From a virus, in the IMG/VR virus record IMGVR_UViG_3300025508_000150, positions 1-24,226 of that record: 24,226 nucleotides of DNA; one strand, 5' to 3'. This document shows positions 3,936-24,226 of this stretch, piece by piece. The notes under the pieces are model-generated. The model was not told the origin of the DNA, did not search any database, and saw nothing but the letters and a program-made list of their open reading frames with translations. A program made the position numbers and the translations under genes. The number at the start of each line of letters is the position of its first letter. The stretch's first letter is position 1.

Positions 3936-6900
3936 CTAAAATGCTGTATCATAAACTTTTTTCATTGCAGATGATGGCTTTTCTCCTAGAATTTTTAATC
4001 CTATTGATACATCAACACCCATTGGTAATTCGCCTAATGGGTTCTCTTCAAAATCTAAATTTAAATCCCAAGGAGTTTCATCTGACATTGAATATGATAA
4101 TGATTCGATGAATGCTTGTCGTTCTCTAAACAAAGAACCCAAACGGAAATCAATTAGTTGTCCGGTATATCCAGTACTGCCACCATATACCGGCATAGTG
4201 AATTTTGCTAACTGAGATAGTTTTTTATATATAGGCTGCATTTCAATACGAGAGGTTGCATAAACTTTAAAGGTAAACGATAAACTTCGTTCGAATGTTT
4301 TGTATTGATATGCCTGGTCCGCTCTTCCGTTATATTTAACAGTATCCCAAGATGGTGAGAATGTATCGGTTATTCCTGCAACCGTTCCTCTGAATTGAAT
4401 TTTCTTATTATCAGATGTTTTGAACCACAGCTGGATTAAATCATATGTGCCTTCGGCTGGCTCTTCACCTATATCAAGTGCGTTTATTTTATCGTATCGG
4501 TCTCCAGTAAGGTCTGTATTCCCCCAGTCTACTCTATTTTCACCTAATTTACCAGGATTACCAAAATTCAGGAATTTGTTTATGTTGTTCTCTCCGTAGT
4601 TTTCTTTTTCTGCTCTTTTATATTCATTACTATCTTCTGATAATAAACTTCTGAAATCTATATCTGCACCGGCCCCACTCTTTCTTTTAGGAATGTTTAT
4701 ATATGAAATGGTTTCGTAATCGGTAATAATTTCACCAGCCGGCCGCGCGTAACTTAAATCTTCTCCTTTTGCATTTGTTCCAATATACCTTGCCCCATCG
4801 GTCTGATTAGATTTTGGAACACCACCACCACCGAATTTATAGATGTCTTTTTTGTAATCCTTATTGATGTACCTGTCATGTAGGAAGAAAAGGTGTTCGG
4901 TACGTTCCTGTTGAGTTCTTTCACTCGGACTAAGATTTTCATCCGTTGCTTCCGTATTAGTTGAATCTGGTGCTTTCATTACGATACCAGCTGCTGTATC
5001 CAACCCATTTGCCAGTGACTTTCGCCCGTATTGGCTAAAGATAGTATATGGTGCAAAGTATCGCTCAAAGTCATCTGGTAAATGTTTTGGGCCGCCTGGA
5101 GCCTCATCACCTAAATTCTTTTTTATTTGTATAGCTTCGTTCCGAGTATCAAATTCCCGCTTTGCGAACTTACCGTTAGGTATTAACCCATATACTGAAT
5201 TAGGTCCACCCAAACTGGCGTTATTAAATTTCCATCCCAAGTTTGCTGATAAGTCGCCTGTTTTACTGGAATTGTAACTGATAGTTTTTGACCCTTTGTT
5301 GATACCAAATGATTCACCATAATACGCCACTAATCTATTATCGGTTGGGTATGCCGGGCCCGGAAATAGACCTAAACCCATATCACCAAAAGCTCCTGCG
5401 TCCAATTTCAATTTTTGTACTGATTCGTACCCACCATCCCCTTTATCAAATGGGGTGAATCCGTGTCTATTTGGGTGTAACCCAAGTTGTATGCCAATTG
5501 AAGATGCTAATGTGTTTATAGGTGTCCATATTTTTGTACGCCGTTTTAAGTTTATCTTTTCTACATTTGGATTTGATTGTTGTAATCCAAATTGCTTTAC
5601 ACCCCATAATAACCCTTTGATGGATACCATCCACTTACCAAGTCTAATTGCATCTATAACTGCTCTTGTAGTAGATGTTATTACACCACCTCTGATAAGT
5701 CCATCATCTAAATCAATGTTAGTACCCGGTATACCAAAGTTTTGAGGTTCATTTCCCTTCTTACCCTTACGTTGTATACCTCTAAGAATTAATGGATGGT
5801 CAAATACTGTCAGTCCAGTATTATGTGCATCATCTCTTAGATTGAATTTAGAATACATCTCATCTAAGAAAGATGGTGAATTACGCATCTCTTGTAGTTT
5901 GGATATTTTACCTTTAGTCAAATCTAATGCAAAGTCACCTCTTTGGAATGAATCCATATAATAGGTACTGTCTTGGTTGTAACTTTGTTTTTGACCTGAT
6001 GCTTGTTTTTGTAATTTAAACTTACCATAACCAGGTGCTGATGATAAATCAGGATGTATATAACTACTATAGTTACTGTATTCAGATAAATTGGAAACCC
6101 ATTTACTTTCATCTGGTAACTTACCTTTAGTCAAATCTACTGCAAAATTACCTGTTTGGAATGGTTGCAAATAATATGTGTTGCTCCTGTTGTTTATTTG
6201 CTTTGTACCTGATGGGTCACCACCAAAAGATTTCACAGTTAATAAATTAACATGCGTATATTTAGAAAAACTACTGTATTCAGATGAGGTAGTACTCCAG
6301 TTAGTTTGGTCTTTTGAAATCCCAATAAATTGTGAAGGTGCTAACTGGAATTGATTTAGGGAAAACCCACGTGCTTTTGATGAATTAATTGGAAAGAAAT
6401 CAACCGCTTTAAGTTTACTATATAATGATGAGTTTTCATTAAATGCATCTTTATCATCGGCTGTTATTTCGTTTAATCCTCTTTTGATTCCTGTAAACTT
6501 TGTTTCATCTCGATGTACTTGGTTTAAAGAAAACCCACGTGCTTTTGATGTTTCAATTGGAAAGAAATTAACCGCTTTAAGTTCACCATGTATTGAGTTA
6601 TTATTCCATACTTCTTGGTTTTTTGCAACCCCAGTAAACTTTGAATCGGCTGGGAGAGTTGCTCCAAATTTAGAGTTAAACCCTTTAGCATGTATATCTG
6701 TAATATAATTTACGTCTTTTGGTGTAGTTTCACCCAAAAACTTAGATGTGTTGTTAGATGGGGTTTGTGTAGTTTCCCCTAAAAACTTAGATGTGTTATC
6801 TGCTGAATTAGGAGTTGTTTCACCTAAGAACTTAGATGTGTTATCTGCCGAATTAGGAGTTGTTTCACCCAAAAACTTAGATGTGTTATCTGCTGAATTA

Positions 6901-7445
6901 GGAGTTGTTTCACCTAAGAACTTAGATTCCCTATTAGATAGAGTTGGTGTTGTTAATCCTAAGAAGTTTTCGTTATTATCAAATTTAGTAGGTGTTGTTT
7001 CACCTAAGAAGTTTTCGTTATTATCAAATTTAGTAGGTGTTGTTTCACCTAAGAACTTAGATGTGTTATCTGCTGAATTGGGAGTTGTTTCACCTAAGTA
7101 ACGTTCTTCTAAACTTAATGGTTTAGTAGTTGTTTCACCTAAGAACTTTTCAGAGTTATTAGATGGCGTAGGTGTTGTTTCACCTAAAAACTTAGATGTA
7201 TTGTTAGATGGTGCAGGTGTGGTTTCACCTAAAAACTTAGATGTGTTATCCATATTTTTTGGATTAACACCCTCTTTATTAGTAGTTGTTTGAGAACGTG
7301 GAATCTTTGGCGCTGATTCTACCATAGAACTTAAAGGTGTTTTGTTTAAGTTTTTGTTAACACTTACTCTTTCTTTAGATTCCAACGGGTCTTTCTTTGG
7401 CATCCTAAACTTTGAAAGGTCTGATTTTAAATCTTTTAATGCCAT
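3936..7445 (-). CDS. Large repeat-bearing tail/baseplate protein
   Basis: A 1169-residue soluble protein with clear tiers. Residues 1-66 are basic and low in complexity. Residues 67-246 are twelve 15-residue tandem repeats built on NTSKFLGETTPNSAD. Residues about 280-376 hold two copies of a longer unit (KARGFSLNQ, then F.GI). Residues about 388-515 hold two copies of another (SEYS.., TYY..FQ.G.FA.DLTKGK). Residues 515-1000 are Gly/Asn-rich. Residues 1001-1169 look like a compact domain (FRGTVAGITDTFSPSWD, GRADQAYQYKTFERSLSFTF, PIYKKLSQLAKFTMPVY) that I have seen as a recurring theme in baseplate and tube-initiator proteins of T4-type phages. The gene lies right after the tape measure, 2 bases after its stop, with an AGGAAA ribosome site. 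It may help start or cap the tube at the baseplate; the N-terminal repeats are probably an extended binding or spacer region. Both functions are inferred. Confidence 0.7.
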   Translation of the reverse strand: MALKDLKSDLSKFRMPKKDPLESKERVSVNKNLNKTPLSSMVESAPKIPRSQTTTNKEGVNPKNMDNTSKFLGETTPAPSNNTSKFLGETTPTPSNNSEKFLGETTTKPLSLEERYLGETTPNSADNTSKFLGETTPTKFDNNENFLGETTPTKFDNNENFLGLTTPTLSNRESKFLGETTPNSADNTSKFLGETTPNSADNTSKFLGETTPNSADNTSKFLGETTQTPSNNTSKFLGETTPKDVNYITDIHAKGFNSKFGATLPADSKFTGVAKNQEVWNNNSIHGELKAVNFFPIETSKARGFSLNQVHRDETKFTGIKRGLNEITADDKDAFNENSSLYSKLKAVDFFPINSSKARGFSLNQFQLAPSQFIGISKDQTNWSTTSSEYSSFSKYTHVNLLTVKSFGGDPSGTKQINNRSNTYYLQPFQTGNFAVDLTKGKLPDESKWVSNLSEYSNYSSYIHPDLSSAPGYGKFKLQKQASGQKQSYNQDSTYYMDSFQRGDFALDLTKGKISKLQEMRNSPSFLDEMYSKFNLRDDAHNTGLTVFDHPLILRGIQRKGKKGNEPQNFGIPGTNIDLDDGLIRGGVITSTTRAVIDAIRLGKWMVSIKGLLWGVKQFGLQQSNPNVEKINLKRRTKIWTPINTLASSIGIQLGLHPNRHGFTPFDKGDGGYESVQKLKLDAGAFGDMGLGLFPGPAYPTDNRLVAYYGESFGINKGSKTISYNSSKTGDLSANLGWKFNNASLGGPNSVYGLIPNGKFAKREFDTRNEAIQIKKNLGDEAPGGPKHLPDDFERYFAPYTIFSQYGRKSLANGLDTAAGIVMKAPDSTNTEATDENLSPSERTQQERTEHLFFLHDRYINKDYKKDIYKFGGGGVPKSNQTDGARYIGTNAKGEDLSYARPAGEIITDYETISYINIPKRKSGAGADIDFRSLLSEDSNEYKRAEKENYGENNINKFLNFGNPGKLGENRVDWGNTDLTGDRYDKINALDIGEEPAEGTYDLIQLWFKTSDNKKIQFRGTVAGITDTFSPSWDTVKYNGRADQAYQYKTFERSLSFTFKVYATSRIEMQPIYKKLSQLAKFTMPVYGGSTGYTGQLIDFRLGSLFRERQAFIESLSYSMSDETPWDLNLDFEENPLGELPMGVDVSIGLKILGEKPSSAMKKVYDTAF
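3939..4445 (-). other. Conserved-looking C-terminal domain of the 1169-residue protein
   Basis: Residues 1001-1169. It is a dense alternation of strands with SPSWD, a G-A-Y-YKTFERSLSF strand pair and PIYKKLSQLAKFTMPVY, unlike the loose repeat region before it. This is likely the part built into the virion tail; its family assignment needs a profile search. Confidence 0.5.
6708..7247 (-). repeat. 45-bp coding minisatellite (12 units)
   Basis: Twelve head-to-tail 45-bp units encode 15-residue repeats with an almost fixed FLGETT core and variable flanks (NTSK/NNEN/LEER; PNSAD/PTKFD/PTPSN). All are in frame with no spacers. Several neighbouring units (the NTSKFLGETTPNSAD set) are close to identical in DNA, suggesting recent expansion. 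Confidence 0.9.
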
Positions 7446-7447
7446 AG

Positions 7448-9880
7448 TTATTTCCTATATACGTTTTTAGATACACCCTGTCTACTTTGAATTTTTGTTA
7501 TTTCAGAAACTACTTTACCATCTACACTTATTAGTATAGGTTGAGATTGAATATCACCACGTAATCCATTAATAGCATCTATTAACTTAGAATCTGAATT
7601 ATCTGAATTTGAATCAGTATCATCCGAACCACCCATCATATCACCGATACTATCAGCAATTCCCATTAAAGTAGGTGCAAGTAGAACGGTTACTGCTCCT
7701 AATCCTGTAAGAGCTAATAAACCAGGTACTCCCATCATACCGATTGCAGCTAATCCAAACGCAACTCCCATAAGAGCAGGTCCTAATAGTAACATAGCAC
7801 CTACATTTTCCATAGTTACTGCATTCATCATATTAACAAGTCCATCAGCTACTGCTGTAATGATTGGTGGTATTGCTGCGAATACACCTATAAATATATT
7901 TCCGAATGCTTCTACTAATGGTGATAATAATGATAATGAGTATGCAAATGGAATCATAGCTACACCTAATGCAGCAAGTAATCCAATTCCAATCAGTACA
8001 GCTATTGCTGTAGCTGGATTACCAAATGCGGTTAAACCCGCTGCGAGTCCTGCAAAGTTAGTAGTTAGAGCAGCCCCCAGTCCAGGAATCGACATAAACA
8101 ATAGAAATGGAATCGCTAACATACCCAGAGCTAGTGCTGGTATGGCTAGTAACAATACCAATGCCCCAACAGCAGCTTGTGTCATTTGAGATAAACCTCT
8201 ACCTAATCCTGTAAAGTTGTCTTTCAATGCTTTTAGTTTAACTTTACCCATAAATAATAAGAATGGGATTGCTGGTAATGATAACAGAAGTGCCGGTCCG
8301 GCTAATGCCATATTAAATATACCTGCTAATACTTTACCCGAACCCATTGCTTTTAATCCACCGGCAAGTGATTTTAATCCTTTACCTGAACCTTGTGATG
8401 CTTTGGTAGGTTTTGCTTCGGAATTACTTAAATCAGTTTGGCCTCCTCCACCTTTGCCACCCATACCAGGTATAAGATTTTTTAAACCAACACTTTTACC
8501 TTGCATCAGATTCATAATACCCATCTGAGCGATGTACCCAATTAGGGCAGTTGTTCCTTCTTTAATTGCATCAGGAGTTCTTTGATACAAATCTAAAGCA
8601 GTTGCTAAGCCTTTATCGAGGTCACTACTTTCTTCAATCTTTTTAGCTTGGTCTCGCTTCTGAATTTGCTCTGATAACATATCAGATGACATCCCTATTG
8701 CTGCAGCGTATTGCTCCATCCCTAATGGGCCTAGTTCTTTGAATTTTTCCGCTGACATATTGGTTTTGTCCAATGCGGCATTTAATGCATCAGTATTCCC
8801 TGTGTTCATGAACTCCATTGCAGCGGCGGTCATACCTTGCATACCTTCCATTTGAGTGGCGGTAAGCTTATCTCCCAACATAATTCGTGCTTTTGCCTGA
8901 GCTTTCATGCTAGATTCAATATCCAACATATTATCAGCTATACCCCTCATATCACTTAAAGAACGGCCTTGCTTATTCATTGCAATGGTTTTTTGAGCTA
9001 AAAGTTTAATCTCTTTCTCACTCATACCAACCATAAGCTTTTGTTGAGATGCCATATCCTTAAATGTAACTGATGCCAATACACCTGCATCTTGTGCCAT
9101 CTTTGATATCTCTTCGGTCATATCATTAGCACTACCACCGGCAGATTCCATCGATTGTGCCATCTTGGCTGCATCTTCACCACCTACACCCATTTTGGAC
9201 ATAGCTGCCATCGAGTTTCTAAGGTCGTTTGTTAACCCAGCAGTCGTACCCATTGTAGTTGCAAAATCTTTGGTAGCTTGGTTGAGTTCTGCTATACTAA
9301 ACTTAGAGAATACAGCGGCCGCCGAGAAGTTCATCATTCCAGCTTCCATTGCAGCGGCACCACTCATACCTAATTCTTGGTTCAAATCAGATGCTAATCC
9401 AACAGTAGTTTTAAATATATCACCAATCGCAGCAGTAGTTCCTTTAAGTGCTTCCATAGCAAACCCTAAAGTAGTACCTGCTTTTAACATTTGACCTAAC
9501 GTACCTAACGAACCAAATAATTCATCTTTATATCCTTCTGCTAGGTCTTTAATCTCTTCTTCTAAATCTTTTTGTTGAATTTTACTTTTAGTGATATCAA
9601 TTGCTAGGTCCATTTGAACTACCATACTATCATTGATAATCTTTCCTGATTTTATGTACTCTTGTAAGTATGTTTGTTTTTCCTGTTCTAATACATTTAA
9701 TTGGTCTGCAAGGTCTGCTTGTCCTTTTACAGATTTATTTATCCTATCTTGGATTTCTGCAGCTGCTTTAGTAGTTTTAGCGGTTGTTGCTAGAATAGCA
9801 GAAATTGACTGGAAGCTATCTTTCGCTTCTCTAGCGGCATTCTTTATTTTTATGGTTTCATCTGATGCAGAGTTAGCCAT
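7448..9880 (-). CDS. Tape measure protein
   Basis: An 810-residue protein. Residues 1-120 are predicted coiled coil and charged (KNAAREAKDSFQSI, then LNVLEQEKQTYLQEYIKSGK). The middle is Ala/Met-rich helix (MESAGGSANDMTEEISKMAQ). Residues about 500-760 contain several long hydrophobic stretches (ALLLSLPAIPFLLFMG, GALVLLLAIPALALGMLAIP, TAIAVLIGIGLLAALGVAM). This combination, the size and the place directly after the tail chaperone pair identify a tape measure, which sets tail length inside the tube and is thought to form or prime the DNA channel across the host inner membrane. At roughly 1.5 angstrom per residue it predicts a tail near 120 nm (inference). The start overlaps the previous stop as TAATG; only a weak AGGT precedes it. 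I see no peptidase motif. Confidence 0.85.
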   Translation of the reverse strand: MANSASDETIKIKNAAREAKDSFQSISAILATTAKTTKAAAEIQDRINKSVKGQADLADQLNVLEQEKQTYLQEYIKSGKIINDSMVVQMDLAIDITKSKIQQKDLEEEIKDLAEGYKDELFGSLGTLGQMLKAGTTLGFAMEALKGTTAAIGDIFKTTVGLASDLNQELGMSGAAAMEAGMMNFSAAAVFSKFSIAELNQATKDFATTMGTTAGLTNDLRNSMAAMSKMGVGGEDAAKMAQSMESAGGSANDMTEEISKMAQDAGVLASVTFKDMASQQKLMVGMSEKEIKLLAQKTIAMNKQGRSLSDMRGIADNMLDIESSMKAQAKARIMLGDKLTATQMEGMQGMTAAAMEFMNTGNTDALNAALDKTNMSAEKFKELGPLGMEQYAAAIGMSSDMLSEQIQKRDQAKKIEESSDLDKGLATALDLYQRTPDAIKEGTTALIGYIAQMGIMNLMQGKSVGLKNLIPGMGGKGGGGQTDLSNSEAKPTKASQGSGKGLKSLAGGLKAMGSGKVLAGIFNMALAGPALLLSLPAIPFLLFMGKVKLKALKDNFTGLGRGLSQMTQAAVGALVLLLAIPALALGMLAIPFLLFMSIPGLGAALTTNFAGLAAGLTAFGNPATAIAVLIGIGLLAALGVAMIPFAYSLSLLSPLVEAFGNIFIGVFAAIPPIITAVADGLVNMMNAVTMENVGAMLLLGPALMGVAFGLAAIGMMGVPGLLALTGLGAVTVLLAPTLMGIADSIGDMMGGSDDTDSNSDNSDSKLIDAINGLRGDIQSQPILISVDGKVVSEITKIQSRQGVSKNVYRK

Positions 9881-10158: not shown

Positions 10159-10161
10159 GAA

Positions 10162-10185
10162 ATACCCAACATTTCTGTTGGGTAT
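10162..10185 (-). terminator. Intrinsic terminator after chaperone pair
   Basis: On the minus strand there is a 10-bp perfect stem ATACCCAACA/TGTTGGGTAT with a GAAA loop, followed by a T-rich tail. It lies 5 bases after the stop at 10190 and before the tape-measure operon. Confidence 0.85.
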
Positions 10186-10189
10186 CCTA

Positions 10190-10447
10190 TTATCTTTTTG
10201 ATTTAGCTTTTTTCATAGCTGTATCATGTTGCTTTTGTTCTTCTTTTTTAAATTCTATTATTTTACTGATGTAGAATGTTCTCGACCAAATCGGTAGGTT
10301 ATATACATCTGTAAATGTGAATCCACCATTTCCATGATAGATTAAATCAAATATTTGAGAATGCAACAGTTTTCGGTAGTTAAGACTTAGGCCAAAAAAA
10401 CCCCACGTCCATAGGCAGTAGCATATTCCTCCTTTCACCAGTTTCAT
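10190..10447 (-). CDS. Tail assembly chaperone second part (gp51-like), likely reached by frameshift
   Basis: An ORF of 85 codons that overlaps the upstream gp26-like gene by 68 bases in the +1 frame. The first 24 codons look like accidental out-of-frame text (GGICYCLWTWGFFGL). The meaningful part begins where the upstream ORF stops: NYRKLLHSQIFDLIYHGNGG, then FTFTDVYNLPIWSRTFYISK and a Lys-rich tail. This resembles the short ORF that follows gp26-like genes in T4-type phages. The annotated ATG has no Shine-Dalgarno sequence, whereas a GGGGTTTTTTTGG run lies in the overlap. I therefore think the sequence is mainly made as a C-terminal extension of the upstream protein, in the manner of G/GT tail chaperones. 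A strong terminator follows 5 bases after its stop. Confidence 0.65.
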   Translation of the reverse strand: MKLVKGGICYCLWTWGFFGLSLNYRKLLHSQIFDLIYHGNGGFTFTDVYNLPIWSRTFYISKIIEFKKEEQKQHDTAMKKAKSKR

Positions 10448-11264
10448 CTGATACGAATTCCCATTCTAAATCTATATCAGGTGTAACTTCACTTATATGC
10501 GTTCTTAAAGCCTTTGAATCTACTGCGAATAATTCATTTTCCACAAAATTGCTGATTATCTTTTGGTCGTATTCACCATCAACTGATAAAATCATATTTT
10601 TTAATCGAGTTGTTAAATCCTTAGAGGTTTCATCTTTTAATTTCTTACGTGCTTTTTTACTTTCTTCTAACTGATGTTTGATTTTACGTTCTTTACTTTC
10701 AGTTAAAGCTTGAAATGTTATCATTCTCTTAGAGCGGGGTAATTCAAATTCGTATTCGTTTTTGTTTAATTCAGTTTGACCTGAACCATCATACTCTTTG
10801 TTTTCAAATTGAGTTAAATCAATTGTATCTTTCTGAGTTGTGTTTGGTGAGGTTGGGTCATCAATTTCAACTTCATAATCTTTACCATAACCTAAAACAC
10901 GTGCTGCTATCATAATTGCGTTTTTATCACCTGTTACTAAATCAACGTATTTGATTGGTAATCCTTCACCATTCGATATAATTAGTGCTTGAAATAATCT
11001 ATCCAATACACTACCATCTTTAATGTATGATTGTGTTGTAAGGATATCTTCCTCTCTGGCAGTCATATATTTTAATTCTATCTTTCCTGATGATAGTGGA
11101 TTATCTTTTGGATAAACCAACCCATTTGAAGGTAATTCAATTATTTCTGTAGGGAATTTGTAATCTGAAACTTGCGTTTGTGCGTGTTGTTGCTTTGCGA
11201 GTTCCACCATATCTGAATTAGACATGGGCTTTGATGAATAATCATCTTGTAGTTTTTCACTCAT
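10380..11264 (-). CDS. gp26-like baseplate/tail assembly chaperone
   Basis: A 294-residue soluble protein. Residues 43-52 (ELPSNGLVYP), 67-96 (MTAREEDILTTQSYI, then LDRLFQALI) and 111-127 (TGDKNAIMIAARVLGYG) match the pattern of the T4 baseplate gp26 family. Residues 190-215 are a charged helix (KERKIKHQLEESKKARKKLK). The C-terminus ends LPMDVGFFWPKS, with the FFWP tail I associate with this family. The gene sits between tube and tape measure genes, the standard position of tail assembly chaperones, and overlaps the next ORF. It has its own leader with an ATATTTATA motif and a GGAGA ribosome site, insulated by a terminator behind the tube gene. The role is to guide tape-measure and tube assembly; it is probably absent from the mature virion. 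Confidence 0.72.
   Translation of the reverse strand: MSEKLQDDYSSKPMSNSDMVELAKQQHAQTQVSDYKFPTEIIELPSNGLVYPKDNPLSSGKIELKYMTAREEDILTTQSYIKDGSVLDRLFQALIISNGEGLPIKYVDLVTGDKNAIMIAARVLGYGKDYEVEIDDPTSPNTTQKDTIDLTQFENKEYDGSGQTELNKNEYEFELPRSKRMITFQALTESKERKIKHQLEESKKARKKLKDETSKDLTTRLKNMILSVDGEYDQKIISNFVENELFAVDSKALRTHISEVTPDIDLEWEFVSDETGERRNMLLPMDVGFFWPKS
10391..10404 (-). other. Candidate +1/-2 frameshift site
   Basis: On the minus strand the upstream frame reads GGG TTT TTT TGG. Seven T residues (10394-10400) let the P-site TTT re-pair one base forward or two back, after which the next codon is GGC in the 85-codon ORF frame. The upstream ORF stops 3 codons later (TAA at 10380-10382). Confidence 0.5.
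10428..10433 (-). promoter_or_regulatory. Internal AGGAGG inside the chaperone overlap
   Basis: A perfect Shine-Dalgarno core sits within the 3' end of the gp26-like gene. The nearest ATGs (one at 10422-10424) are in the gp26 frame, not the downstream frame. It could pause ribosomes or start a short peptide; it is about 27 bases before the T run, further than classical frameshift stimulators. Confidence 0.35.
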
Positions 11265-11323: not shown

Positions 11324-11355
11324 AACAAAAAAACCCCACCATTTCTGGTAGGGTT
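11324..11355 (-). terminator. Intrinsic terminator after tail tube gene
   Basis: A 10-bp stem AACCCTACCA/TGGTGGGGTT (one T-G pair) with a GAAA loop, running directly into seven Ts. It lies 33 bases after the tube stop codon. Confidence 0.88.
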
Positions 11356-11387
11356 CTTAATTTTATTAATAATTCGGTAATTCTGAA

Positions 11388-11876
11388 TTAGAAATTTAGT
11401 ATTGCGTAATCAAATGTAAGTGTTAAATCAACAGTTGCGATATCTTCACCAGTATAATCCATATCTGAGAATTTTGCTGTTTGAATAAATGCACCTTTAA
11501 GTTTCCACTCTTCTACTTTATCACCAACAGGACCCAAACTGTTAAATGTGATATCTTTTTTGTAGAAATCAGAGTATCCATCTCGTCCGGTTACAGATTC
11601 GTGATGTAGTCTTACCCATTCCATTGCTGCTTGTGCTGCTGAAGGAACTACTGGGTCATATAGTGAAATTGTTAAATCACTCCACTCACTTCTACCTTTT
11701 ACATATCGTTTAACGTTAACGTGGTCTATTGTAACCTTACCGTTTGTTATTTCTGGTCTACCAGCAGCTTTAACTAAGTATGCTGGAATTCCTTCTATAT
11801 ACATAATGAACCTGTTTGACATCTTCGGTTCGAATGATGTAAACATTACTTCTGTTGGGTCTAATAATTGTGCCAT
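11388..11876 (-). CDS. Tail tube protein (gp19-like)
   Basis: One hundred and sixty-two residues, nearly the length of T4 gp19 (163). It contains the family pattern: SNRFIMYIEGIPAYLVKAAG near the N-terminus, TIDHVNVKRYVKGRSEW, LTISLYDPVVPSAAQAAMEW, LHHESVTGRDGY, and a C-terminal strand pair ending ATVDLTLTFDYAILNF. Stacked hexamers form the inner tube through which DNA passes. The gene is a monocistronic unit flanked by terminators, with an ATATTTATA element and an AGGAAAA ribosome site, which fits the need for many copies. No truncation is visible. Confidence 0.92.
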   Translation of the reverse strand: MAQLLDPTEVMFTSFEPKMSNRFIMYIEGIPAYLVKAAGRPEITNGKVTIDHVNVKRYVKGRSEWSDLTISLYDPVVPSAAQAAMEWVRLHHESVTGRDGYSDFYKKDITFNSLGPVGDKVEEWKLKGAFIQTAKFSDMDYTGEDIATVDLTLTFDYAILNF

Positions 11877-17315: not shown

Positions 17316-18023
17316 TTATAATCCGAACCTACCTTTTGTTGCGTTATAATTTTGTAGTACTTCTGCTGCTGTTAATACTCTGTCATAATACAATGTGTTA
17401 TGTATTTTACCATTTAATGGGTATTTACTTCCACCTAACTCTAGTATTCCAGACGTGTTCGGAGTACCTCCACCACCATGTATAACAGTTTGACTAATAC
17501 CATTAAAATAAAGAGTACAGTTATTTACTATTGTAGTGGTATTAGTTCCACCAACTCCAGTAAATGTCAGACAGAGATTATTAGGCTCCGTTCTATCGTG
17601 GGGCACCTCCATACGGAACGCTCTGTAAGCGCCAGTCCCCCCCTCTCTCCAATAACAATATATTCGATTACTAGTTGACCAATAAAACCCTATAACTCCA
17701 AAATTATTTGTGCCGCCATCTCCACCTGCTTCAAAACAACTATCATTTACTGAGCAATCAGAAGTCCATAATTGAATAGTAAATGGAACATCTGCCCAAT
17801 TGGTAGCAGTTACTGGAGTAACTATCTTATCATTAGAACCATCAAAATCAAAAGCTCCACTAAATGTAGTATCATGTGTAGTTCCATTAGTTAGTGTACT
17901 ATCACTATTTCCTGATAAATCGTTAACTGCAGTTCCACTACCAGGGTATGATTTTTTATTTGCTGCATCTACAGAGAACACTAATCCATCTGTTACTATA
18001 TTTGGCCCACCATGCGTTCCCAT
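17316..18023 (-). CDS. LamG-like lectin-fold protein 3
   Basis: A 235-residue protein with the N-terminal signature NIVTDGLVFSVDAANKKSYP, GSGTAVNDLSGNSDS, then FDFDGSNDKIV, a lectin-fold body (PFTIQLWTSDCSVND, NNCTLYFNGISQTVIHGGGG) and the closing KIHNTLYYDRVLTAAEVLQN. This is the LamG/concanavalin A-like jelly roll common as a decoration or adhesin module in phage structural proteins. It has no signal peptide, as expected for a virion protein. Unlike its paralogues the middle is Cys- and Gly-rich and carries several aromatic loops. It starts inside the stop of LamG 2 (TAATG overlap). The likely role is attachment to polysaccharide or glycoprotein; the ligand is unknown. Confidence 0.75.
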   Translation of the reverse strand: MGTHGGPNIVTDGLVFSVDAANKKSYPGSGTAVNDLSGNSDSTLTNGTTHDTTFSGAFDFDGSNDKIVTPVTATNWADVPFTIQLWTSDCSVNDSCFEAGGDGGTNNFGVIGFYWSTSNRIYCYWREGGTGAYRAFRMEVPHDRTEPNNLCLTFTGVGGTNTTTIVNNCTLYFNGISQTVIHGGGGTPNTSGILELGGSKYPLNGKIHNTLYYDRVLTAAEVLQNYNATKGRFGL

Positions 18024-18748
18024 TATATAAACCTATTTTTTAATGCGTTATAATTTTGAAGTATTTCTGCTGAAGTCAGTACTTTGTTATATATTTTAAA
18101 TGCTCCGAAAGTACCTGGTAGATAGTTTGCGGCTCCGTTTCGACTACCTATACAAAGATTTGATGTGTTTGTTATTCCACCTGATATGGTGCCCGTACTT
18201 ACGCTTGTGGTATCATTTACAGTATCTATTATAATATCTATTCCACTTGCAGTACCCGAACCATCATATGTACATACGACATGATGCCAATTGTTACCTC
18301 TATAAGTATTATTTACAGTAGATACAATTATTCTCTTAGAGGTCGCATTTGTATTTCGTAGTGCAACTGCTATTTTACCTACATGAGCATTTCCTCTATA
18401 TGTTATTTCCACCCCTCTATAATTCCCGCTAGATTCATTTTTACCCATAATATATTTACTGGTATTTGCTGTCGACCTCACCCATATTTCGTAAGTGAAT
18501 GAATCATCATGGTCGAAATTAGCAACAGATGCGTTTCCAAAAGTCACAAAATCATTCGTACCATCTAAAGTTATAGTACCCCCAGCTTCAGTAGTATTAA
18601 ATGAAGGGTTATTAGTTAGTGTACCGACTTCATCACCTATTGTACTATTTAAATTAGTACCACTACCAATGTATGATTTTTTATTAGCCGCGTCAACTGC
18701 GAATATTAGACCATCTGTTACTATTTTTGGTGAATAATGAAATGCCAT
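18023..18748 (-). CDS. LamG-like lectin-fold protein 2
   Basis: A 241-residue protein sharing the ends of its two neighbours: KIVTDGLIFAVDAANKKSYI at the start and AFKIYNKVLTSAEILQNYNA at the end. The middle (HDDSFTYEIWVRSTANTSKY, NWHHVVCTYDGSGTASGIDI) matches the LamG core, including the FTYEIWVR strand and the WHHVVCTYDGSG strand. The N-terminus is diverged from LamG 1 and 3 by many silent changes. It follows LamG 1 with TAAATG and no gap. It is a likely adhesion or decoration module of the virion. Confidence 0.78.
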   Translation of the reverse strand: MAFHYSPKIVTDGLIFAVDAANKKSYIGSGTNLNSTIGDEVGTLTNNPSFNTTEAGGTITLDGTNDFVTFGNASVANFDHDDSFTYEIWVRSTANTSKYIMGKNESSGNYRGVEITYRGNAHVGKIAVALRNTNATSKRIIVSTVNNTYRGNNWHHVVCTYDGSGTASGIDIIIDTVNDTTSVSTGTISGGITNTSNLCIGSRNGAANYLPGTFGAFKIYNKVLTSAEILQNYNALKNRFI

Positions 18749-19420
18749 TTATATAAACCTACTTTTTGTTGCGTTATAATTTTCAAGTATTTCTGCTGCT
18801 GATAATGCTTTGTTGTAGATTTTAAATGATGCCATATTCCCATTTAGGAAGTTAGAGTTGGTTGCTACATATCTTCCAATTTCAGAAACAGAAGTACTCA
18901 TACTACTCACACTCTGGTTTGTAATAATACTACCATTAAGATATATTTTAATATTTCCCGCACTCGTATCAATTACAGCTGATATATTACTCCATACATC
19001 CCTAGTTAATAAGGTGGATTGGGTCATTTTAACTGCACCACCATTAAAATAGTAAAAGTTTCCGTAAGAAAGTCCTACTGCAGTCCCACCCTCACTAATT
19101 GCCAAACCTTTACCTCCCGTAACACCTGTAAAATATCCGTACCCACTATCATTAGCTCCCATTTTATACCAAAAGTTTAAAGTATAAATAGAATTTGTAA
19201 TAGTTGATGTTAAAGCTATATAATCATTAGTCCCATCAAAATTAACATTACCAGAATTTTCACTATCAAACGCAGGCCCATTGGTTAGTGTACCGGTATT
19301 TGCGTTTCCTGATAAATCATTCCATGCAGTTCCAGAACCTGGATATGATTTTTTATTTGCTGCATCTACAGAGAACACTAATCCATCTGTTACTATATTT
19401 GGACCTGTGCTTCCAGCCAT
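18749..19420 (-). CDS. LamG-like lectin-fold protein 1
   Basis: A 223-residue protein with the same N-terminal frame (NIVTDGLVFSVDAANKKSYP, SGTAWNDLSGNANTG, NFDGTNDYIAL), a LamG body (TNSIYTLNFWYKMGANDSGY, DTSAGNIKIYLNGSIITNQS) and the end ASFKIYNKALSAAEILENYN. It overlaps the stop of the 83-residue gene by one base. It has a poor ribosome site, so translation is probably coupled. Fold assignment is by motif and I give no ligand. Confidence 0.78.
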   Translation of the reverse strand: MAGSTGPNIVTDGLVFSVDAANKKSYPGSGTAWNDLSGNANTGTLTNGPAFDSENSGNVNFDGTNDYIALTSTITNSIYTLNFWYKMGANDSGYGYFTGVTGGKGLAISEGGTAVGLSYGNFYYFNGGAVKMTQSTLLTRDVWSNISAVIDTSAGNIKIYLNGSIITNQSVSSMSTSVSEIGRYVATNSNFLNGNMASFKIYNKALSAAEILENYNATKSRFI

Positions 19421-19692: not shown

Positions 19693-20121
19693 TTAACAAT
19701 CAAATTGACCATCAACTTGACCACTTCCATCGATAGAAATTCCAGATTCCCCACTTCCATACATATAAAATCCAGCTTCAGCAGTTGGGCCTGTGTCATC
19801 ATCTTCTCTATAATAAGTTACACCATTAGCATATGGGCTTCCACCCCCATCGTGATAAAATGCGGTATCACCTGCGTTACCACAACCTTCTTCCGGGCCA
19901 CCCCATGGGCCGTTTAATGCTTCTTCAGTTAATCCTGCTGATGCTGAATGGTCGTATGAATAAAATTCTGATAGTTTATGTGGTGTACTTCCATCGGGTT
20001 TAGCCGAACTTGCATCATTTACCTCCGTTGTTGATAGTACCGTTAATGAACCATTGACGTTGCCCATTTCCACTCTGATTTGGCTAATACTTATTGGGTT
20101 TCCACTAGCTGGTAATGCCAT
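19693..20121 (-). CDS. Small phage tail-associated protein with Gly/Asp-rich C-terminus
   Basis: A 142-residue protein. It begins MALPASGNPISISQIRVEMG, a start often found in short phage structural proteins and fibre adaptors (LPASG.IS..Q...E.G). Residues 60-142 form a Gly/Asp/Tyr-rich domain (GPWGGPEEGCGNAGDTAFYH, GGGSPYANGVTYYREDDDTG, GFYMYGSGESGISIDGSG) that ends in a terminal Cys; this looks like a small repeated beta-sandwich seen in environmental phage proteins. The ATG overlaps the fibre stop (TAATG), so it is coupled to the fibre. A fibre tip or linker is plausible. Confidence 0.65.
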   Translation of the reverse strand: MALPASGNPISISQIRVEMGNVNGSLTVLSTTEVNDASSAKPDGSTPHKLSEFYSYDHSASAGLTEEALNGPWGGPEEGCGNAGDTAFYHDGGGSPYANGVTYYREDDDTGPTAEAGFYMYGSGESGISIDGSGQVDGQFDC

Positions 20122-23100
20122 TATTTAATCCTATTTTTAAGTTCATCAATTTGTTTTTGTTGTTCTTTAATAGTTTCTATCAATAATGGTATTATTTTTT
20201 CATACCGAACTGCTTTCATACCACTATTTCGGGTTTGTACTGCTTCAGGTAGAACTGCTTCTACTTCTTGTGCAATAACACCAACATCATGTCCTTTATT
20301 ACCATGTACTACTGAATCTTCTCTCCAATCAAATTCATACCCACCTAATTCAAGTAATTTTTGTAATGGGGATTCAATTGGTGTGATATTATCTTTCCAT
20401 CTTCTATCTGATGTTGAGAATGCTACAACATCATTTGATGCATCAATTCTACCTGCAGTTACACTTCCCGTAAGAGCACCAACTGCCAATGAACCTGTTA
20501 TTACTACATTTTTACCATTTACTACAATACCTTCTTGATTATGAGTTCCTATTTTAACTGTATCATCAGAGAATACTTCAAAAATTGGTATACCTGATAT
20601 ATCGTTTACTGAGAAAAGAGAACCTGATAGTTCATCTGTTACTGAGAATAAAGTACCGAACCCACCTTCAATAGTAAATACATCCGTATCCCCAACAGAA
20701 CCCGAGCGATATATCTTTGTTGAGCCGTATACATCCAATGCAAGGCCACCTGAACCCGATACTACTATTGAGCCTGTAATTTGTGCATCACCTGTAAATG
20801 GGAATGTTGATGATGATACAATACCAGCTGGTAATTGTGCAGAACCACTTATAAGACCTGATGGTAATTGTGCAGAACCACTTATAATACCAGCAGGTAA
20901 ATTTGCCAATACATTCGCCGCATCGGTTACATCAGCACCAGCTTCAACATTCAAGTCACTTAGTACTTCAGCTACAGTTCTACCTTCAACCGATGTTCCA
21001 TCAATTTTTAAGAAATCATTATCTGCTACTGCAGCGTTAGCAACTAAAACATTTCCATTTGAAATACCACTTGCTAATCCTTTTACTAATGAAAGATTTG
21101 TAACTTCCGAATCCATTAATGCGCCAGCAGCAGTTACGTTAGTAGCATCTGTTACGTCTGCACTGCTTTCAACTGAATCTAATTTAGTTTCTTGTGCATC
21201 AGTCATTAACCTTTTATTAGTTGCATCTGTAAAGTTAGTAGTTGTAAATGTTGGAGTTGCCCCACTAACTACTGATTGGTCTAATGCTTTTACATTAGCA
21301 ATAGATGTTAATTCTGAATCCATTAATGCGCCAGCTGAAGTTACATTTGCTGTATCTGTTACGTCTGCGGATGCTTCAATTGCATCTAATTTATTTTTTA
21401 GAGTTGTTGTAAAATCATTAGCAGTTTGTGTAGGTAATGAAGTTAATCCACTACCATCACCAGCAAAAGAACCTGTAAACGAACCTGTAAATGGGGTTGT
21501 TAATGTATTAAATTGAGTTGAACCACTTATAAGGCCTGATGGTAATTGTGCTGAACCACTTATTACACCCAATGTATCAAGTGCGGCAACAACGTTAGTA
21601 GTATCGGTTACGTCTGCTGATGCCTCAATTGCATCTAATTTATCAAACATTGCTTTTGTCATTACACCTGCAACAGATGTTGATGCTGCTCCTATCGCAA
21701 CATTATCACCATCAGATGAATTAATTGTAACATTTGTTTCTGATGCTGTTTTTGTTAGGTTTGTAGAAACGTTTGTTACTTTTGCTGTATTGGTTGCAAC
21801 ATCAGATGCAATTGATGAACTTACAGAAGTAAAAGAGCCGGAAATTGATGCTGCCGTTAATACTTTAATTAATGCTAATGCAGAAACTTCCGAATCCATC
21901 AATGCCCCAGCTGATGTTACATTGGCTGTATCAGTAACATCTGCACTGCTTTCAACTGAATCTAATTTAGTTTCTTGTGCATCAGTCATTAACCTTTTAT
22001 TAGTTGCATCTGTAAAGTTAGCCGTTCCAAATGTTGGAGATGCTCCACTAACTACTGATTGGTCTAATGCTTTTACATTAGCAATAGATGTTAATTCCGA
22101 ATCCATTAATGCTCCAGCTGATGTTACATTAGTGGTATCTGTTACGTCTGCTGATGCTTCGATTGCATCTAATTTATTTTTTAGAGTTGTTGTGAAGTCA
22201 TTTGCTGTCTGAGCTGGAAGGGAGGTTAACCCACTACCATCACCAGCAAACGAACCTGTAAACGAACCTGTGAATGGGGTTGTTAATGTATCGAATTGTG
22301 TTGAACCACTTATAAGGCCTGATGGTAATTGTGCTGAACCACTTATTATTCCACTTGGTAAATTTGCCAATACATTTGCTGTATCTGTTACATCAGCACT
22401 TGCTTCGATTCCATCAAGTTTATCAAACATTTCGTCTGACATTAATCCCCAATTGTCCGTATCCGCAAGAGATAATGCTACATTATCACCATCCGATGAA
22501 TTAATTGCGAATCCAGTTCCACTTACTGTTTTAGTTAAGTTAGTAGAAACATTTGTTGCTTTTGCTGTATTGGTTGCAACATCGGATGCTATTGAAGAAC
22601 TTACTGCAGTAAACGAACCAGAAATTGATGCTGCGGTTAATACTTTAATTAATGCTAATGCAGAAACTTCAGAATCCATTAATGCTCCAGCAGATGTTAC
22701 ATTTGCTGTATCTGTTACATCAGCACTTGCTTCAATTGCATCTAATTTTGTTTTTAATGTATTTGTAAAATCATTAGCAGTTTGGGCTGGAAGGGAGGTT
22801 AATCCACTACCATCTCCAGCAAACGAACCTGTAAATGAACCTGTAAATGGAAGAGTTAATGTATCGAATTGAGTTGAGCCACTTATTATTCCAGCAGGTA
22901 ACTGTGCTGAACCACTTATTATTCCAGCAGGTAATTGAGCTGAACTACTAATTGTTCCAGCTGCTCCACCAACGCCTGTTAAATTTGAACCATCACCATA
23001 TAGTGAACCACTTACATATAGTGAACCTGTAAATTGATGTGTATCTAATATATCATCACCGAAAATGGTAGAGCCGCTACTGAATGAGGTAGTCATATGA

Positions 23101-24226
23101 GTTACTGATGAACTTACTACATATTCTTCTGCTGTTATTGTTTTAACTACCAACTCAGCGCCAACTAAAGAAGATAATACATTAGTGGTATCGGTTACAT
23201 CCGCACTTGCCTCTATCCCATCTAATTTATCAAATAGTGTAGTGTTCATTAGACCTGAAACAGATGTTGTTGCTACGGGTATTGTTGCGTTATCACCATC
23301 TGAAGAAGCGATTACTCTAGCTTCAGTAGTTCCAGTTATAGATAAATTTGTAGAAACGTTTGTTGCTTTTGCTGTATTGGTTGCAACATCGGATGCTATT
23401 GAAGAACTTACTGCAGTAAACGAGCCAGAAATGGATGCAGCCGTTAATACTTTGATTAATGCTAATGCAGAAACTTCAGAATCCATTAATGCCCCTGCGG
23501 CAGTTACATTTGTTGCATCTGTTACATCAGCTGATGCTTCGATTGCATCTAATTTATTTTTTAGAGTTGTTGTGAAGTCATTTGCAGTTTGGGCTGGAAG
23601 GGAGGTTAATGCTGACCCATCACCAACAAAAGAACCTGTAAATGACCCAGTAAATGGAGTTGTTAATGTATCGAATTGTGTTGAACCACTTATGATACCC
23701 GAAGGTAATTGAGCTGAACCACTTATGATACCCGAAGGTAAATTTGCTAATACGTTTGCTGTATCTGTTACATCTGCAGATGCTTCGATTCCATCTAATT
23801 TATCAAACATTGCTTTTGTCATTACACCTGCAACAGATGTTGATGCCGCTCCTATTGCAACGTTATCACCATCAGATGAGTTTATTGTAACATTTGTTTC
23901 TGATGCTGTTTTTGTTAAGTTTGTAGAAACATTTGTTGCTTTTGCTGTATTGGTTGCAACATCGGATGCTATTGAAGAACTTACAGAAGTAAACGAACCA
24001 GAAATGGATGCAGCCGTTAATACTTTGATTAATGCTAATGCAGAAACTTCCGAATCCATTAATGCTCCAGCGGCAGTTACATTGGTTGTATCTGTTACAT
24101 CTGCTGATGCCTCAATTGCATCTAATTTGTTTTTTAATGTTGTTGTAAAGTTTTCATCAGATGCTCCACTAATTCCTGTGATTCCACTACCATCTCCAGC
24201 AAATGAGCCTGTAAACGAACCTGTAA
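20121..24226 (-). CDS. Repetitive tail fibre with S74 auto-processing chaperone domain (5' end beyond window)
   Basis: The frame is open from the right edge to the TAA at 20121-20123, at least 1368 codons. A Met at 24059 is internal, since the reading frame continues upstream with the same repeats. Most of the protein is built from alternating units: PFTGSFTGSFAGDGSGLTSL, KLDAIEASADVTD, GALMDSEVSALALIKVLTAA and SGIISGSAQLPSGIISGS. These are typical of trimeric triple-helix fibre shafts. A distinct C-terminal stretch (TGSIVVSGSGGLALDVYGST, FSVNDISGIPIFEV) precedes the S74 domain. The final 96 residues begin SDRRWKDNITPIESPLQKLL and end with EQQKQIDELKN. In this family the chaperone cleaves itself at the Ser of SD.R.K. 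It is probably the receptor-binding fibre. Confidence 0.85.
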   Translation of the reverse strand, partial: TGSFTGSFAGDGSGITGISGASDENFTTTLKNKLDAIEASADVTDTTNVTAAGALMDSEVSALALIKVLTAASISGSFTSVSSSIASDVATNTAKATNVSTNLTKTASETNVTINSSDGDNVAIGAASTSVAGVMTKAMFDKLDGIEASADVTDTANVLANLPSGIISGSAQLPSGIISGSTQFDTLTTPFTGSFTGSFVGDGSALTSLPAQTANDFTTTLKNKLDAIEASADVTDATNVTAAGALMDSEVSALALIKVLTAASISGSFTAVSSSIASDVATNTAKATNVSTNLSITGTTEARVIASSDGDNATIPVATTSVSGLMNTTLFDKLDGIEASADVTDTTNVLSSLVGAELVVKTITAEEYVVSSSVTHMTTSFSSGSTIFGDDILDTHQFTGSLYVSGSLYGDGSNLTGVGGAAGTISSSAQLPAGIISGSAQLPAGIISGSTQFDTLTLPFTGSFTGSFAGDGSGLTSLPAQTANDFTNTLKTKLDAIEASADVTDTANVTSAGALMDSEVSALALIKVLTAASISGSFTAVSSSIASDVATNTAKATNVSTNLTKTVSGTGFAINSSDGDNVALSLADTDNWGLMSDEMFDKLDGIEASADVTDTANVLANLPSGIISGSAQLPSGLISGSTQFDTLTTPFTGSFTGSFAGDGSGLTSLPAQTANDFTTTLKNKLDAIEASADVTDTTNVTSAGALMDSELTSIANVKALDQSVVSGASPTFGTANFTDATNKRLMTDAQETKLDSVESSADVTDTANVTSAGALMDSEVSALALIKVLTAASISGSFTSVSSSIASDVATNTAKVTNVSTNLTKTASETNVTINSSDGDNVAIGAASTSVAGVMTKAMFDKLDAIEASADVTDTTNVVAALDTLGVISGSAQLPSGLISGSTQFNTLTTPFTGSFTGSFAGDGSGLTSLPTQTANDFTTTLKNKLDAIEASADVTDTANVTSAGALMDSELTSIANVKALDQSVVSGATPTFTTTNFTDATNKRLMTDAQETKLDSVESSADVTDATNVTAAGALMDSEVTNLSLVKGLASGISNGNVLVANAAVADNDFLKIDGTSVEGRTVAEVLSDLNVEAGADVTDAANVLANLPAGIISGSAQLPSGLISGSAQLPAGIVSSSTFPFTGDAQITGSIVVSGSGGLALDVYGSTKIYRSGSVGDTDVFTIEGGFGTLFSVTDELSGSLFSVNDISGIPIFEVFSDDTVKIGTHNQEGIVVNGKNVVITGSLAVGALTGSVTAGRIDASNDVVAFSTSDRRWKDNITPIESPLQKLLELGGYEFDWREDSVVHGNKGHDVGVIAQEVEAVLPEAVQTRNSGMKAVRYEKIIPLLIETIKEQQKQIDELKNRIK
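20124..20411 (-). other. Peptidase S74 intramolecular chaperone domain
   Basis: The last 96 residues of the fibre. The motif SDRRWKDNI carries the Ser (20409-20411) and the Lys of the family's Ser-Lys dyad; GVIAQEVEAVLPEAV is the second hallmark, and a coiled C-terminal helix follows. It folds the trimer and is then released. Confidence 0.88.
20870..24226 (-). repeat. Fibre shaft repeat array
   Basis: The shaft contains about eleven KLD(A/G/S)(I/V)E(A/S)SADVTD units, one of them in the edge segment, plus one degenerate unit (VEAGADVTD). The longer PFTGSF/KLD/GALMDSE modules recur at least five times. The repeats are near-identical as protein but carry many silent differences, so they are not recent DNA copies. 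Confidence 0.85.

Follow-up and report, generated by a model that had tools for sequence, protein, structure and literature searches.

Frameshifting in the genes of tail assembly chaperones is widespread in long-tailed phages, and its direction is usually -1. In phage lambda, a -1 shift near the 3' end of the gene between those for the tail tube and the tape measure protein produces gpGT, the minor long form of gpG (PMC5009743). A -1 frameshift on a poly-T run has also been published for the chaperones of T4-like phages, as PMC12846349 recounts of Vladimirov, Gautam and Davidson (2022). In T4 itself, gp26 and gp51 were proposed as tail assembly chaperones by Vladimirov 2022, according to the citing passages in PMC10885494 and PMC12846349. 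Shifts of +1 in phage structural genes are likewise known, in PSA and probably in the tail chaperone of HSTV-2 (PMC5009743), and there are 350 forward sites among the annotated SEA-PHAGES frameshifts (PMC10885494). In the open-access literature we found no paper on a +1 shift in the gp26/gp51 family.

The window analysed here is a stretch of 24,226 nucleotides from a marine phage (IMG/VR record IMGVR_UViG_3300025508_000150). We consider it very probable that it carries a tail assembly chaperone gene of the T4 gp26/gp51 family, which encodes two nested proteins by way of a +1 shift at a run of T. The short form would be ORF1 (10380..11264, minus strand), a gp26-like and thus G-like protein of 294 aa, whose link to PF12322 and phrog_150 runs through its relatives. 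The ORF finder reports a second ORF of 85 aa, ORF2 (10190..10447, minus strand), in the +1 frame relative to ORF1. The initial annotation had described an overlap of 68 bases between these two ORFs and the codons GGG TTT TTT TGG in the upstream frame, and both descriptions are correct: the overlap is 10380-10447, and on the minus strand the sequence across the site reads ATG GAC GTG GGG TTT TTT TGG CCT AAG TCT TAA, with the seven T at 10400 down to 10394 and GGGG directly before them (10401-10404). The codons GGG TTT TTT TGG lie 9 bases ahead of the ORF1 stop, and the protein ends in ...MDVGFFWPKS*. We define the shift site as TTT TTT TGG CCT (10389..10400, minus strand), 12 bases which are invariant in the close clade. 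The extension, a gp51-like and T-like domain which we call the T domain, would be read in +1 once the ribosome has shifted (10193..10396, minus strand), as judged from the fused translation and from frame-specific constraint. The predicted fused product has 357 aa and the junction ...MDVGFFGLSLNYRKLL....

The neighbouring genes are those expected from lambda. Upstream lies the gene of a gp19-like tail tube protein (11388..11876, minus strand), which matches phrog_4542 (E=7e-24) and, below the curated cut-off, PF06841 (E=1e-4). The next large gene downstream (7448..9880, minus strand) probably encodes the tape measure protein of 810 aa. This assignment is by position, as profile searches gave no family match for the protein; Flavobacterium phage immuto and Bacillus phage SP-15 have an annotated tape measure gene at the same position. 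The placement between tube and tape measure proposed in the initial annotation thus holds, by profile match for the one and by position for the other. The chaperone genes have a strong terminator-like hairpin on either side, the first between them and the tail tube gene (11329-11358, minus strand) and the second just after ORF2 (10160-10187, minus strand). The former ends in GTGGGGTTTTTTTG, a 14-mer identical to one at the shift site, and SP-15 likewise has an annotated terminator between its tube gene and gp26.

Relatives of the locus were collected in several ways. A scan of IMG/VR gave 299 relatives, of which 80 were kept, and tblastn added named relatives: Microcystis phage Mel-JY01, Flavobacterium phage immuto, Bacillus phage SP-15, Streptococcus phage GXN1 and two uncultured phages. 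A tblastn match in Bacillus phage KKP_4048 was a chance match to another gene. Scans that started from immuto, LR756508, SP-15 and Mel-JY01, together with one of genome contigs, brought the collection to 281 short-form loci, in which the frame of the T domain was assigned with an HMM of this second domain. Of the distinct loci, 179 have the T domain in +1 and 7 have it in -1; in a further 7 it was not found, at least 4 of these being truncated. Since the relatives share descent, the counts over the 179 loci are not counts of independent events. The isolates Mel-JY01, immuto, SP-15 and GXN1 all have the same +1 offset, and the uncultured phage LR756511 is the only named relative without the second domain in +1. 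An insertion or deletion in a homopolymer is a common sequencing or assembly error and could split one ORF into two, but the same offset in 179 distinct loci, from independent assemblies and including several isolate genomes, has already refuted this explanation, to which we give practically no probability. The initial annotation had proposed to look for conservation of the T run and of the frame offset in relatives, and the two are conserved, the offset across these 179 loci and the site without variation in the close clade.

All full-length close relatives among the 80 kept have TTT TTT TGG CC at the end of the short form, with the +1 frame open for ~67-71 codons beyond it. Across 36 non-redundant close relatives, TTTTTTTGGCCT (bases 0 to +11) has zero entropy. 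In the same 36 sequences, the mean entropy at frame-0 codon positions 1, 2 and 3 is 0.27, 0.16 and 0.81 over the 60 bases before the site, zero over the site's first 9 bases, and 1.13, 0.44 and 0.09 between +21 and +60. The position that is free to vary is thus the third of frame 0 before the site and the first of frame 0 after it, and the latter is the third position in +1. The part of ORF2 upstream of the shift site (10401-10447) is probably untranslated in the +1 frame, because the constraint there is that of frame 0 and because a +1-frame stop is found within 3 codons upstream of the site in 48/179 loci. In many close relatives this stop stands directly before the T run, as with the T_TAG in TTA GGG TTT. 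Protein-like sequence in the +1 frame begins at the T run, with the conserved residues FFGL, ~20 nt before the end of ORF1 and not at the ORF1 stop where the initial annotation had placed it.

These observations bear on the possibility that the two ORFs are simply separate genes, with the T domain initiated independently or made through translational coupling. ORF2 does have an ATG (10447), a start codon is present upstream of the site in 117/179 loci, two relatives (L200 and L205) have a stand-alone T ORF, and T4 has separate genes 26 and 51. On the other hand, the ATG of ORF2 has no Shine-Dalgarno sequence, as the initial annotation had noted, FFGL, read in +1 at the site, is conserved, and upstream of the site the constraint is that of frame 0 alone. 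Furthermore, ATG, GTG and TTG are all absent before the site in 61/179 loci. In these loci, and in the 48 with a near stop, the second frame can be entered only by shifting. As a start codon does exist upstream in the remaining loci, it is these two counts, and not the overlap alone, that carry the argument, and they leave separate genes as a very improbable explanation. The initial annotation had regarded relatives with clearly separated ORFs and their own ribosome sites as evidence against frameshifting. Apart from L200 and L205, no such arrangement was seen: these two have lost the usual slippery doublet, and their T domain is a separate ORF with its own ATG. Both are apparently derived from frameshifting ancestors. 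Within ORF1 of the window, ~8 codons ahead of the shift site, there is also an AGGAGG AAT ATG (10422-10433, minus strand) which could be an internal start and which is partly kept in relatives such as L092.

The core of the site is TTT TTT TGG in 129 of the 179 loci, TTT CTT TGG in 28 and TTC TTT TGG in 9; TTT CTA TGG and CTT TTT TGG occur 3 times each and other cores once or twice. In all 179 sites a +1 re-pairing is possible (on TTT before T or C, or on CTT before T), so that a re-pairable P-site codon and an extension in the +1 frame, two features of programmed +1 shifting, are found together throughout. The X XXY YYZ heptamer of programmed -1 sites is not seen in the window family, where the second ORF is in +1 and the run is preceded by T in 0/133 sites. 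From the codon usage of the same amino acids, T would be expected before TTTTTT in 63.5 of these 133 sites and G or C in 24, yet G or C is found in 126. As the base before the run is never T and mostly G or C, slipping by -1 is disfavoured.

The initial annotation had left the direction as +1 or -2, and of these the first is supported. A -2 slip like that of phage Mu would, at the T run, lead to the same downstream frame with one extra Phe (GFFFGLS), and at 136/179 sites the TTT of the second codon could pair anew two bases back. At the other 43/179, however, where +1 remains possible, no cognate -2 re-pairing exists (CTT to TTC, CTA to TTC, TTT to TCT), and a tandem -2 slip would need re-pairing with the G or C that is nearly always found before the run. 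We therefore regard -2 as very unlikely. Slippage of the RNA polymerase at the seven T, giving mRNAs with T6 or T9 that are then translated in the ordinary way into the second frame, would be in keeping with the homopolymer present in most relatives. Seven U are short for RNA polymerase slippage, though, and 33 relatives with a broken run (TTT CTT, TTT CTA), with at most 3 consecutive T on either side, keep the +1 offset; the conservation also reaches beyond the run into GGCCT. Transcriptional slippage thus seems very improbable. The broken runs, such as TTT CTT TGG and TTT CTA, argue at once against sequencing error, transcriptional slippage and a -2 slip, and leave +1 re-pairing of the P-site tRNA.

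The simplest account is a +1 slip of the peptidyl-tRNA-Phe on UUU_U, or on UUU_C or CUU_U in the corresponding relatives. Most ribosomes would read the 294-aa short form and terminate at the stop at 10380. In a minority, the tRNA-Phe on UUU in the P site of UUU UUU UGG would slip one base forward onto the overlapping UUU, and reading in +1 would then give the 357-aa long form with its gp51-like C-terminal domain. Slow decoding of UGG, the single Trp codon, in the A site perhaps helps the slip. By analogy with lambda gpG and gpGT (PMC5009743), the short form would be expected to coat the tape measure protein and the rare long form to recruit tail tube subunits. The comparison shows the frame switch with its position, the conservation of the site, the want of another start in many relatives and the membership of the family; from these we infer that the shift takes place in the cell, and from lambda its efficiency and the chaperone function.

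A similar re-pairing is known from the RF2 gene (prfB), where the P-site tRNA on CUU_U also moves by +1 onto UUU, and CTT_T is indeed found at the second codon in 29 relatives of the window. In the window clade, the spacing of GTGGGG-TTT-TTT-T equals that of AGGGGG-UAU-CUU-U in RF2. GGG precedes the site in 34/40 window-clade sequences, and it makes up only ~7% of the Gly codons in these genes. However, the A site of the window has the Trp codon UGG and not a stop codon as in RF2, and the G-rich element is limited to the close clade. Beyond that clade a Shine-Dalgarno-like stimulator is not conserved; the other clades have AAC, ACC or AGC before the site, so the G-rich element is not general. 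No conserved downstream (3') RNA structure was detected near the site, either with RNAalifold on sets of 63 and 14 relatives or by folding single sequences. PSA and the SEA-PHAGES forward sites share with the window the +1 direction in structural or assembly genes, but PSA uses a proline codon, and none of the forward sites is described in PMC10885494 as a gp26/gp51 relative.

The assignment to the T4 gp26/gp51 family (PF12322, phrog_150, phrog_634) depends on the relatives, through which the window proteins are joined to it as distant relatives. PF12322 matches 17/27 and phrog_150 22/27 members of the window-family alignment, while in profile searches the short-form protein of the window alone matched neither. 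In profile comparisons with hhalign, the short form aligns with cyanophage gp26 (probability 97.7) and the extension with cyanophage gp51 (probability 95.1); the match of the extension to phrog_634 is weak (E=0.02). This family assignment is in keeping with the title of Vladimirov et al. 2022 and with the citations of that work in PMC10885494 and PMC12846349. The predicted structure of the short form (pLDDT 84.8) matches T4-type baseplate hub proteins in a BFVD fold search, and its top PDB fold match is, weakly, the HK97 tail assembly chaperone 2ob9 (Foldseek E=2.2, VIA Z=5.5, 95 residues). A PDB sequence search returned one non-significant, unrelated match (E=0.81). In T4, gp26 and gp51 both match PF12322 and are encoded by separate genes on opposite strands, without a frameshift. 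There gp26 is the short form, and gp51 spans phrog_150 to its end as well as phrog_634, which makes it the long form as a separate gene.

Cyanophages and other T4-type phages differ in the direction of the shift. In this group, which comprises S-PM2, P-HM1, ACG-2014d, S-RIM8, S-CAM1, pf16, ACP17, Bhz51, CZ01, OLIVR6 and 80 IMG/VR loci, 81/81 distinct sequences have a T before TTT TTC or TTT TTT and the T domain in -1, the site (T_TTT_TTC/T) lying at most 2 codons before the stop. These phages apparently join the two parts at the homologous place as well, but through a step of one base back. They share with the window the protein family, the place in the gene, the logic of a short and a long form and the FF codons at the junction; they differ in that the window extension is in +1 and that the base before TTT TTT is mostly G or C and never T. 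Lambda shares the genetic position and the minor long form, but it shifts by -1 and is unrelated in sequence. Judged from this comparison, the window has the known G/GT-type frameshift of lambda in a +1 version, the direction being reversed within one family. A programmed frameshift in a gp26/gp51-like pair, as the initial annotation had proposed, is thus strongly supported, although the view that it would be an unusual version is right for the direction only, as shifting itself is usual and -1 is the rule on the cyanophage side.

In a tree of 122 short-form proteins, 67/69 plus-one rows fall into one branch (support 100/98), which includes L200 and L205; the placement of the long branches SP-15, GXN1, LR756511, L100 and T4 is uncertain. 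We think it fairly likely that the direction of the shift was reversed within the T4-type chaperone family, between -1 at T_TTT_TTC and +1 at V_TTT_TTT_T (where V is not T). The direction may be gated by the base ahead of the run, a change of this base together with a small downstream indel would convert one state into the other, and in derived lineages the shift would have given way to a separate gene. Two distant relatives, LR756511 (L086) and a locus in a Deltaproteobacteria MAG (L100), have the T domain in the -1 frame without a T_TTT_TTC site.

One homologous gene pair thus offers natural replicates of -1, +1 and no shift in which the Phe-Phe codons of the junction are the same, and the determinants of direction and efficiency can therefore be tested by single-base swaps. 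The annotations of the named relatives give separate short ORFs or nothing for the chaperone extension, and the long chaperone is absent from the annotation of phage genomes such as immuto, Mel-JY01 and SP-15.

Several other features of the window were observed. An ORF at 3936-7445 (minus strand), whose product of 1169 aa is without family matches, contains at 6727-7250 ~11.6 copies of a 45-base repeat with SKFLGETTP-type motifs. At 17316-19420 (minus strand) there are three tandem paralogues with a start like NIVTDGLVF(A/S)VDAANKKSY. The two of them that were scanned have concanavalin A-like lectin domains (PF13385), and the paralogues are likely receptor-binding or decoration proteins. A long repetitive fibre protein is encoded at 20121-24226 (minus strand); its gene has 33-base repeats, and a Peptidase_S74 chaperone domain forms its C-terminal part.
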